Assembly: GCA_028872915.1 (NCBI GenBank)
Contig: JAGWNY010000002.1
Span: 1 to 64,000, forward strand
Direction: 5' to 3'
DNA: 64,000 nt
Source of the DNA: Verrucomicrobiota bacterium
Lineage (GTDB): Bacteria > Verrucomicrobiota > Verrucomicrobiia > Limisphaerales > UBA11358
A program made the translations under genes and the position numbers. Shown here in pieces: positions 18,138-39,836 of the stretch (positions are counted from its first letter, which is position 1; every line of letters begins with the position of its first letter). The notes below the pieces were generated by a model, which made no database searches, was not told the DNA's origin, and worked only from the letters and a program-made list of their open reading frames with translations.

Positions 18138-19811
18138 TTACAACCGGTTCAAGGCGCTGATCACGGCGCGAACCGAAGCCAGTTCAATATTTGTATCCAC
18201 GGCCGCGCCCCAGCGTTCGTTGCCGCTGGCAGCCTTGATCTTAATGTAGGCAATGGCGGCCGCTTCTTCGCCCGAACCCAGGGCATGTTCACTGTAAGAG
18301 GCGATTTCAAAGCGTGGCGCACCGATCGCGCTGAACCCATGCACGAGCGCGGCGAGCGGGCCGTTGCCCTGGCCAACCAGTTCGACCGGCCGGCCATCGC
18401 GCGACAATCCGGCGCGGCATTTCACAATGCCGTCCTTGCTTTCGGCCTGAAAGCGGAGCAGTTGCCAGGGAGCCGTCCGTTCCACGTATTCACGCCAAAA
18501 CATTGCCTTCAATTCCGCGCCGGTGACCTCGCGGCCCAGCCGATCTACTTCGTCGTTGGCGATGGGGCCGAATTCACGCTGCATGTCCTTGGGCAATTCA
18601 ATGCCAAATTCGCTTTCCAGCAAATAAGCCACGCCACCCTTGCCCGACTGCGAATTGACCCGGATCACCTCGCGATATTCGCGGCCGATGTCGGTGGGAT
18701 CAATGGTGAGGTAAGGCACGTCCCAGAATGCGCCGTTGGATTGCGCGGGAATTTTTTCCTTCCATTCGTTCAATCCCTTGCGGATGGCATCCTGGTGCGA
18801 ACCGCTGAAAGCGGTGAACACCAATTCGCCCGCGTACGGCTGGCGGGGCGGAATCGTCATGCCCGTGCAACGCTCATAAACCTCGATGATGGAATTGAGG
18901 TCCGCGAAATTCAGTCCGGGGTCAATGCCGTGCATGTATAGATTGAGCGCCACGGCGACAATGTCCAGATTGCCGGTGCGTTCGCCATTGCCAAACAACG
19001 TGCCCTCCACGCGGTCGGCCCCGGCCAGCAAGCCCAGTTCCGTCGCCGCCACGCCCGTGCAACGGTCGTTGTGGGTGTGCAGGCTGATGATCACCGAATC
19101 GCGGTTCTTGATGTTCCGGCACATCCATTCGATCTGGTCGGCATAAACGTTCGGCATCGCCACTTCCACCGTGTCGGGGAGATTCAAAATCATCGGGTTC
19201 CGCGGCGTCGGACGCCACACGTCCATGACGGCCTCCGAAATTTCCTTTGCAAATTCCACTTCCGTCGCCGAAAAACTTTCGGGCGAGTACTGGAGCATCA
19301 CCTCGGCGCCCTTGAGCCGGGGCAAACGGTCGCGGATCCATTGCGCGCCATGCACGGCAACCTCAATGATTTCCTTTTTCGATTTCCCAAAAACGACGCG
19401 CCGCTGCGCCGGCGAAGTGGAATTGTAAAGGTGAATGATCACTCTCCTGGCGCCGATGAGCGACTGAAACGTGCGTTCGATCAAATCCTCCCGCGCCTGG
19501 ACGAGCACCTGGAGCCGGACGTCGTCCGGCACGCGCTTTTCCTCGATAAGCCGGCGGTTGAACGTAAATTCCGTATTGGATGCCGAAGGAAAACCCACCT
19601 CGATTTCCTTGAACCCGATTTGCGCCAATGTCTGAAACAACTCCAGTTTTTGGGAGACGTTCATGGGCACCGGAAGCGCCTGGTTGCCGTCACGCAGGTC
19701 CACGCTGCACCAAATCGGCGCGCGGGTGAGAACGCGGCCGGGCCATTGCCGGTCCGGCAGGTGTACGGGTGGAAATGGACGATATTTTTTGGACGGTTCT
19801 TTGAGCGTCAT
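18138..19811 (-). CDS. leuA: 2-isopropylmalate synthase, type 2 (yeast/actinobacterial-like)
   Basis: 557 aa, the first committed enzyme of leucine synthesis (acetyl-CoA plus 2-oxoisovalerate). The long N-terminus with YRPFPPVHLPDRQWP is typical of the type 2 form. The metal/catalytic motif is DLRDGNQAL (38-46), and HTHNDRCTG (near residue 246) supplies metal-binding His. The C-terminal ~130 residues form the leucine-binding regulatory domain (VELVGQGNGPLAALVHG). Expression is predicted to be controlled by the attenuator at 19849-20004. No other leu gene is adjacent. Confidence 0.93.
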   Translation of the reverse strand: MTLKEPSKKYRPFPPVHLPDRQWPGRVLTRAPIWCSVDLRDGNQALPVPMNVSQKLELFQTLAQIGFKEIEVGFPSASNTEFTFNRRLIEEKRVPDDVRLQVLVQAREDLIERTFQSLIGARRVIIHLYNSTSPAQRRVVFGKSKKEIIEVAVHGAQWIRDRLPRLKGAEVMLQYSPESFSATEVEFAKEISEAVMDVWRPTPRNPMILNLPDTVEVAMPNVYADQIEWMCRNIKNRDSVIISLHTHNDRCTGVAATELGLLAGADRVEGTLFGNGERTGNLDIVAVALNLYMHGIDPGLNFADLNSIIEVYERCTGMTIPPRQPYAGELVFTAFSGSHQDAIRKGLNEWKEKIPAQSNGAFWDVPYLTIDPTDIGREYREVIRVNSQSGKGGVAYLLESEFGIELPKDMQREFGPIANDEVDRLGREVTGAELKAMFWREYVERTAPWQLLRFQAESKDGIVKCRAGLSRDGRPVELVGQGNGPLAALVHGFSAIGAPRFEIASYSEHALGSGEEAAAIAYIKIKAASGNERWGAAVDTNIELASVRAVISALNRL

Positions 19812-19848: not shown

Positions 19849-19878
19849 AACCCCACCGCCGTTTTTGGCGATGGGGTT
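19849..19878 (-). terminator. Attenuator terminator of the leuA leader
   Basis: On the minus strand, AACCCCATCGCC, a six-base loop AAAAAC and GGCGGTGGGGTT form a 12 bp stem with one wobble-type mismatch. The run TTTTGTGTTT follows directly. It lies between the leader peptide and the leuA ATG, 37 nt upstream of the latter. Its 5' arm can alternatively pair with 19902-19913 (GGCGGTAGGGTT; 11 of 12 positions including one G-U), which would be the antiterminator. Confidence 0.85.
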
Positions 19879-19897
19879 GAAATTGGTTAAAACGCAA

Positions 19898-19969
19898 TCA
19901 GAACCCTACCGCCGCGCGGCACAGCAGCAGCGCTTCCAACAGCAGGGCCGGATTCACATTGCAATTCAC
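19898..19969 (-). CDS. leuL: leuA leader peptide (attenuator)
   Basis: A 23-codon open frame starts with GTG at 19969 (alternative GTG at 19957, 19 codons) and ends TGA at 19898-19900. After Asn-Pro-Ala it encodes Leu-Leu-Leu-Glu-Ala-Leu-Leu-Leu, six Leu codons among eight, then a short tail. The codons before the stop (19902-19913) form the antiterminator arm. A ribosome reaching the stop would cover that arm and allow termination, while one stalled at Leu codons would leave it free. The start coincides with the predicted +1, so the peptide may be translated from a leaderless mRNA. Confidence 0.85.
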   Translation of the reverse strand: MNCNVNPALLLEALLLCRAAVGF

Positions 19970-19975
19970 AGGGGC

Positions 19976-20004
19976 AATCTAGCCGCCGGTCCGGGCCGCG
20001 TCAA
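19976..20004 (-). promoter_or_regulatory. Promoter of the leu leader/leuA transcript
   Basis: On the minus strand, TTGACG (19999-20004), a 17 nt spacer and TAGATT (19976-19981) end 6 nt before the leader GTG at 19969. It is close to the sigma-70 consensus. Confidence 0.75.
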
Positions 20005-38960: not shown

Positions 38961-39836
38961 TTAATAAACCACCTTGTTCAACGGATATTCGATGATGCCT
39001 TCGGCGCCGGCGGCCTTCAATTGGGGAATCAATTCCCGGACGATATGTTCGTCAATAATCGTTTCCACGGCCACCCATCCTTTCAGGCTTAAGTTGGAGA
39101 TTGTGGGATTGCGCAACGCCGGCAATTCCCGCAACAGCCGGGCAAGATTGTTTTCGGCAATGTTCATCTTGAGGCCCACCTTGGCCTCGGCGTCGAGCGC
39201 GCCTTTGAGCAGCATCGCCAGCGTTTCAATTTTCCCGCGTTTCCACGGCTCTTTCCACGATTCGTGATTGGCAATCAACCGCGGCGTGGACACCAACAAT
39301 TCCTCCACGATGCGCAATTTGTTGGCCCGTAGCGACGAGCCGGTTTCCGTGACCTCCACAATCGCATCCACCAGTTCGTGCGCCTTGACTTCCGTCGCCC
39401 CCCACGAAAATTCCACCTCCGCCTTTACCCCATGCTTGCGCAGGTACTTTTTTGTGAGGTTGACAACTTCCGTGGCAATCCGCTTGCCTTCCAGGTCCTT
39501 CACCGACTTGATCCTGGAATTCTCCGGCACCGCCAGAACCCAGCGCGCGGGCCGCCGCGTCGCTTTGCTGAACAAAAACGCGCCCACTTCGTGGACTCTC
39601 GAGCCGTTTTCGATCACCCAGTCATGGCCGGTGATGCCGCAATCCAAATACCCGTGTTCAACGTAACGGCTGATTTCCTGCGCCCGAATCAGCCGCACCT
39701 CCATTTCATCATCATCAACCGACGGAATATACGAGCGGCTGCTGATGGAAATGTTGAAGCCTGCTTTCGCCATCTTCTCAATGGTGGCGTCCTGCAAACT
39801 GCCCTTGGGCAGGCCAAACTTTAACTTGTTGCTCAT
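38961..39836 (-). CDS. hisG: ATP phosphoribosyltransferase, long form
   Basis: 291 aa from the ATG at 39836 ([14 protein letters not shown]). It catalyses the first step of histidine synthesis (PRPP plus ATP). The motifs include [29 protein letters not shown], and [23 protein letters not shown], the PRPP-binding loop. The ~80-residue C-terminal domain (GLKMNIAEN... [14 protein letters not shown]) is the regulatory domain of the long form, so no HisZ partner is needed. It starts 14 nt after the 45-residue gene. Confidence 0.95.

Follow-up and report, generated by a model that had tools for sequence, protein, structure and literature searches.

The window, that is, the whole stretch of 64,000 nucleotides that was analysed, carries on its minus strand a leuA gene (18138..19811) encoding a 2-isopropylmalate synthase of the yeast-type subfamily TIGR00970 (722.8 bits against a cut-off of 697.4). 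The gene starts at 19811, downstream of an intrinsic terminator with a 12-bp stem (19849..19878, minus strand), which was identified by a terminator scan and by covariation. The arms of this terminator, region 3 (19878-19867) and region 4 (19860-19849), lie in the sequence AACCCCATCGCC-AAAAAC-GGCGGTGGGGTT and are followed by the T-rich tract TTGTGTTTAT. Further upstream, a promoter scan located a -35 element, TTGACG (19999..20004, minus strand), and, after a 17-nt spacer, a -10 element, TAGATT (19976..19981, minus strand), which together agree with the consensus at nine of 12 positions; TTGAC is present in most relatives.

Six nucleotides past the -10 box lies the GTG (19969-19967) of a short open reading frame (19898..19969, minus strand) with 23 codons, six of them for Leu, and with the TGA at 19900-19898 as stop codon. 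Its translation is VNCNVNPALLLEALLLCRAAVGF. The frame contains two in-frame GTG codons, and the start of the conserved frame in relatives favours the first as the putative start of the leader peptide. In the window the presumed regulatory Leu codons fall in the stretch CTG CTG TTG GAA GCG CTG CTG CTG (19922..19945, minus strand), where Leu triplets flank Glu-Ala. The end of the frame contains region 2, the antiterminator arm GGCGGTAGGGTT (19902..19913, minus strand), which is 12 bases long and ends one base short of the leader stop codon. Region 2 repeats the terminator 3' arm GGCGGTGGGGTT with a single base change and can for this reason form 11 of the 12 pairs with the 5' arm that the two share. 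The promoter, the GTG-started leader with six Leu codons, the arm at the leader's end and the 12-bp terminator whose 5' arm pairs with either partner, all of which had been claimed in the initial annotation, were thus recovered.

Taken by itself, the window sequence could be the work of chance, and it is suggestive of an attenuator rather than decisive. Between 14000 and 26000 the promoter scan found six sites where 4.1 were expected, and 18 terminators were found where shuffled sequence led to an expectation of 20.5. With the Leu usage of seven window genes, at least six Leu in 22 codons have a probability of about 0.015, and the 136-nt leader folds into a structure more stable than those of 200 out of 200 shuffles (z -4.7). 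It is conservation among relatives that settles whether the putative attenuator is real.

Conservation of the leader frame and the paired arms

LeuA was searched in 59 genomes, with a match in 58, and a leader profile was run over 120 upstream regions, namely those of 43 yeast-type leuA genes from the searched genomes (window included) and of 77 out of 80 named loci, L064, L066 and L068 being left out for want of upstream sequence. At E below 1e-3, 56 of the 120 regions matched. Among them were all 43 yeast-type leuA upstream regions of the genus and the order, window included, as well as 13 of the 21 named loci from Verrucomicrobia that have a yeast-type leuA; the 56 upstream regions from other phyla gave no leader profile match at this threshold. 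The named relatives with the leader belong to Verrucomicrobia subdivision 3 and Pedosphaera, and the leader segments of L048, L053 and L070 are those found at the loci of G020, G032 and G029, from the window's genus. The eight unmatched Verrucomicrobia loci were L054, L056, L058, L059, L060, L065, L069 and L062 (E 0.0022). Three of these (L056, L059 and L060) carry different short open reading frames with Leu-Arg-Leu near hairpins, and on two spirochaetal contigs (L067 and L071) a Leu-rich short open reading frame and a hairpin with a T tract precede a yeast-type leuA; none of these five matched the leader profile.

An alignment of 48 rows was made from the 56 matches after removal of four identical copies, of L006 and L021 (cut or interrupted by N), and of L034 and L036 (diverged). 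The typical leader peptide is (V/M)NRNLNLLLTNALLTSAAVGF, with a mean of 6.2 Leu per 22.4 codons, and at four alignment positions Leu occupies 42 to 47 of the 48 rows. The start-to-stop length is a multiple of three in every row; the spacer 3' of the leader stop is so in just 12. Pairwise differences at codon positions 1, 2 and 3 were 0.281, 0.275 and 0.341, a weak third-position excess because RNA pairing constrains third positions too. With the excess at third positions weak, the leader frame nevertheless appears to be under selection.

The terminator is paired in 96.9% of cells over the 48 aligned leaders, and its covariation score was 0.157 compared with 0.096 in shuffles, none of 500 shuffles scoring as high. 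The third terminator pair, for example, is C-G in 22 rows and A-U in 21. For the antiterminator 89.1% of cells are paired, and again none of 500 shuffles was as high, in cells paired and in covariation alike; its measure of further pair types was ordinary, with 132 of 500 shuffles as high. When completeness was scored as the best of two registers, out of 11 pairs, all 11 were present in 29 of the 48 leaders, 10 in 15, and nine or fewer in four (five in L038). The leader stop codon lies 13 nt past the start of the antiterminator arm in 48 of 48 rows, and the terminator is the stronger of the two structures in 46 (means of -22.3 and -17.7 kcal/mol). The initial annotation had read the region as a leucine attenuator and had proposed a comparison of leuA upstream regions among relatives. 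That comparison bore the reading out, with the leader frame intact in all 48 aligned relatives and both stems conserved with covariation.

Distribution of the leader and the two LeuA subfamilies

A covariance model, R1, was built from the 48 aligned leaders, all of them from yeast-type loci. At E up to 1e-5, R1 had a match in 166 of 196 genomes drawn from the order, and in 101 of the 111 good ones. In 159 of the 166 the match reached E <=1e-10, stronger than the best recognised cross-hit to ilvB (2.1e-9, G033). Model searches of more than 40 genomes were run with stricter filters, by which weak matches are lost. In a class-wide draw of 286 genomes, R1 had matches in 139 at E up to 0.01, many of the weak ones comprising the terminator only, and in 240 genomes of the phylum, class members included, four matched at E up to 1e-5, namely the window's own genome and three partial matches. 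Reading of four order genomes with LeuA but no R1 match showed a diverged Leu leader and a terminator in G192 and G560, and no leader ahead of leuA in G179 and G578. A search of 286 genomes for the pattern CTTCGACTT before TGA was uninformative, since the pattern is common everywhere.

Class-wide, 68 R1 matches were read among the matches listed (29 fetched by search and 39 hand-picked, mostly full length). A leuA gene lies downstream in 60 of these, of the yeast type in 23 and of the bacterial type in 37; of the latter, again among the matches listed, 20 come from the order and 17 from further families of the class. Of the remaining eight, five lie ahead of ilvB with a valine-rich leader, and one ahead of an ilvB-like frame. 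Outside the order 18 matches were read, of which 17 precede a bacterial-type leuA and one (L198) has no leuA. The same leader is accordingly found ahead of two non-orthologous LeuA subfamilies, TIGR00970 and TIGR00973: the window LeuA scores 185 bits to TIGR00973, far below its TIGR00970 score given above, and the bacterial-type LeuA of L154 reaches 664 bits with TIGR00973 and 139 with TIGR00970. Although built from yeast-type leaders only, R1 matches bacterial-type leaders over the full length of the model, down to E 2.5e-29 (L149), and the leaders are therefore most simply homologous.

Three genomes, G051, G561 and G518 (L238-L243), hold both LeuA types, each gene behind its own leader; in the yeast-type copy of G051 the antiterminator is mostly lost (5 of 11 pairs). 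All three are drafts, with completeness 75, 93 and 89 and contamination 2, 2 and 4, respectively, so that any one of them might be a mixed bin. Most simply, the ancestral leader would have stood with a bacterial-type leuA, a copy of it would have come to precede an acquired yeast-type leuA, and one or the other gene would then have been lost. We lean towards the view that one homologous leaderless attenuator was kept over leucine synthesis while LeuA was swapped for a non-orthologous subfamily, by way of genomes holding both enzymes, each with its own attenuator copy. A tree of 106 leaders (L006, L021, L034, L036, L055 and identical copies being left out) is compatible with one origin; with 64 of 103 inner branches open and 15 label changes by parsimony, it is too weak to count or orient swaps. 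Among 29 loci examined for their upstream neighbours, five of the yeast type had an aspartokinase-like gene upstream, and among the groups listed yeast-type and bacterial-type loci had no neighbour in common. If the exchange of genes is true, a regulatory RNA has outlived the gene it regulates. The cis-acting RNA switch appears older than the gene beneath it, and which of the two is conserved first, regulation or enzyme, becomes a question that can be addressed on existing genomes.

Six of the weak R1 matches, together with one in the window's own genome (G000:C64), proved to be valine-rich leaders with their own terminator. The one in the window's own genome (L128 and L210, G000:C64:12174-12364) has the valine-run leader MLKHSQAPAQWLAFAAGVVVNGDAAGAC and a terminator ahead of ilvB. 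A second model, R2, built from these seven leaders, matched 168 of the 196 order genomes and 106 of the 111 good ones. In all 30 fetched R2 loci ilvB lies downstream, and 27 of the 30 leaders contain a run of at least three Val, which points to a sister attenuator with a valine run ahead of ilvB in the order. As genomes of family f33 matched neither model, a lack of leuA in them was considered and rejected, HMGL-like proteins being present in nine of nine searched; in G192, of this family, a strong LeuA-like protein lies behind the diverged Leu leader.

Probable attenuation and its alternatives

We regard the element in the window as very probably a ribosome-mediated transcription attenuator of leuA, and its anatomy allows transcription start, leader translation, termination and response to leucine to be predicted. 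RNA polymerase would start at, or a few bases from, the leader GTG, and would be followed by a ribosome translating the Leu-rich leader. With ample Leu-tRNA the ribosome would get to the stop codon, 13 nt past the start of region 2, and mask region 2, whereupon region 3 would pair with region 4 and the terminator would halt transcription ahead of leuA. With scarce Leu-tRNA the ribosome would stall at the Leu codons and leave region 2 exposed to pair with region 3, so that no terminator would form and leuA would be transcribed.

The pairing was followed in a folding model in which the transcript was taken prior to synthesis of the terminator 3' arm, with the ribosome as a mask. Over the 48 leaders, mean pairing between region 2 and region 3 was 0.66 in the ribosome-free transcript and 0.87 with the ribosome on the first or the third Leu codon, the value for the third Leu being above the ribosome-free value in just 35 of 48. 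With the ribosome on the last Leu codon the mean was 0.59, under the ribosome-free value, and with the ribosome at the stop codon it was 0, a value built into the mask and hence not independent evidence. Ribosome-free antiterminator pairing was 0.90 in the window and at most 0.06 in 10 of the 48 leaders, and RNAalifold returned a conserved hairpin within the leader in addition to the terminator; together, these results indicate that a fourth segment competes in part of the family, to which the window does not belong. In those 10 leaders the model suggests that upstream leader sequence holds region 2, as in four-segment attenuators. The simple two-state switch proposed in the initial annotation thus fits the window, but not these 10 leaders, where an upstream segment competes. 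In addition, CTNCGACT (Leu-Arg-Leu with CGA) was observed in 24 of 106 leader segments, compared with a mean of 1 in shuffles. Among the Arg codons of seven window genes CGA is rare, and CTNCGACT may sharpen stalling.

The promoter geometry suggests that the leader mRNA is probably leaderless, with the transcript starting at, or a few nucleotides from, the start codon. The leader start codon lies 6-7 nt past the -10 box in 34 of 46 relatives with a scored promoter (two of the 48 rows had too little upstream sequence to be counted), and the distance was 4-10 nt in 45 further loci with a promoter score of at least 8, from both LeuA types and from other families of the class. Ahead of the leader, the best Shine-Dalgarno match did not exceed 4 nt in 46 of the 48 rows, and ahead of leuA it stayed within 4 nt in all 48; as leuA is no better off than the leader, a weak Shine-Dalgarno sequence is a weak argument for leaderlessness. 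The accessible parts of the respective papers describe leaderless leader peptides in Streptomyces (PMC8079986) and a nearly leaderless one in Corynebacterium (PMC11857589), and a title cited in PMC9031893 reports leaderless leader peptides for mycobacterial cysteine attenuators. As the leader seems to lack a 5' UTR, it would give a simple model of leaderless initiation coupled to termination.

The anatomy, the conserved frame, the paired and covarying arms and the conserved place ahead of leuA are direct observations, against which other explanations were weighed. Regional promoter and terminator counts close to the shuffled expectation are what a chance meeting of promoter, open reading frame and hairpin would give, but the leader is kept in 43 of 43 near relatives and the model matches 166 of 196 order genomes; chance origin is refuted by this conservation and was rejected as next to impossible. 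It is also very unlikely that the leader encodes a functional small protein followed by a mere terminator hairpin, with leuA transcribed by read-through or from another promoter. Such a protein would agree with an open reading frame that is conserved right through its last codons and unbroken in all 48 aligned relatives. These last codons, however, form the antiterminator arm, which nearly repeats the terminator 3' arm, and their pairing comes with covariation; moreover, the element stays ahead of leuA in 60 of the 68 matches read (among the matches listed) though upstream neighbours vary, and outside the order the peptide diverges yet remains Leu-rich.

Control could instead lie with an RNA-binding protein or with a riboswitch that senses leucine directly, the Leu-rich open reading frame playing a secondary part. 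This has been proposed for the actinobacterial LEU element; in the accessible text of PMC1262725, actinobacterial leuA leaders with Leu runs did not act as classical attenuators. Here, in contrast, an intrinsic terminator and a mutually exclusive antiterminator are present and no Rfam family matches, which makes control of this kind highly improbable. Over the window, Rfam covariance models gave only a tRNA at gathering thresholds, and none of the six sub-threshold matches around the leader (E 0.29 to 8.2) was to a leader, T-box or riboswitch family. For lack of a family match, a T-box and any other known Rfam element were rejected.

Known systems and other amino-acid genes

Classical leu, ilv and trp attenuators of Proteobacteria combine a short open reading frame rich in the product amino acid with an antiterminator and a terminator that share one arm. 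The leuA element is like them in its Leu-rich short frame, in the arm shared by antiterminator and terminator, and in the biosynthetic gene downstream. Unlike them, it matches no Rfam leader family, probably has no 5' UTR, and belongs to Verrucomicrobiota.

The actinobacterial LEU element and LeuL1 of Streptomyces lividans likewise have a Leu-rich short open reading frame ahead of leuA. In the available portions of the two reports, the LEU element is a pseudoknot with the Leu run paired with the leuA Shine-Dalgarno sequence (PMC1262725), and LeuL1 is transcribed leaderless and without a typical terminator (PMC8079986); the verrucomicrobial leader differs from these descriptions in having an intrinsic terminator and an antiterminator. 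Identity with the LEU element was rejected, since a terminator is present before leuA and the element is defined without one in those portions of PMC1262725 and PMC8079986. The ilvBNC attenuator of Corynebacterium glutamicum, as far as the accessible text of PMC11857589 describes it, has a leader 1 nt from the transcription start, a Val run, and terminator and antiterminator hairpins. In this design it resembles the verrucomicrobial ilvB sister element, and it differs from the leuA element in coming from Actinobacteria and in lying ahead of ilvB rather than leuA. The ilvB-OMG and ilvB (Leptospira) RNA motifs have been proposed as branched-chain uORF attenuators in various phyla; they are described before ilvB, and the leuA element was not found in the available part of that report (PMC10272879).

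According to passages of a 2010 paper (PMC2965389), the leader peptide systems then known, ermC apart, were confined to Proteobacteria and Actinobacteria, with Firmicutes added. The accessible text of PMC4833913 does not mention Verrucomicrobia, and the corresponding parts of PMC11683593 (erm(B) induction) and PMC11611912 (EF-P and a paralogue) have other subjects. The initial annotation was aware of no described case in this lineage, in agreement with the literature searched (mostly by title, and with the 2010 survey of Lopatovskaya and colleagues outside it), which held no report of leader-peptide attenuation of amino-acid genes in Verrucomicrobiota. The mechanism is thus already known in kind, and what would be new is the lineage, the breadth and the gene swap. 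The known range of leader-peptide attenuation would thereby come to include a lineage of Verrucomicrobiota that is large and for the most part uncultured, and the findings suggest that it is the usual design for leuA and ilvB there.

Upstream of trpE and hisG (16 genomes each), no Trp- or His-rich short open reading frame with a terminator was found within 420 nt, a distance that the first gene of an operon may exceed; one scan window each was misplaced at a contig end (L257 and L280), and the fragment L268 was left out of the trpE scan. The same holds for the hisG gene of the window (39270-39824), which has no His-rich short open reading frame with a terminator in the preceding 420 nt. Elsewhere in the window's own genome (L127, G000:C102:569-660), a short open reading frame of no clear amino-acid bias ends just before a strong terminator and the start of another gene.
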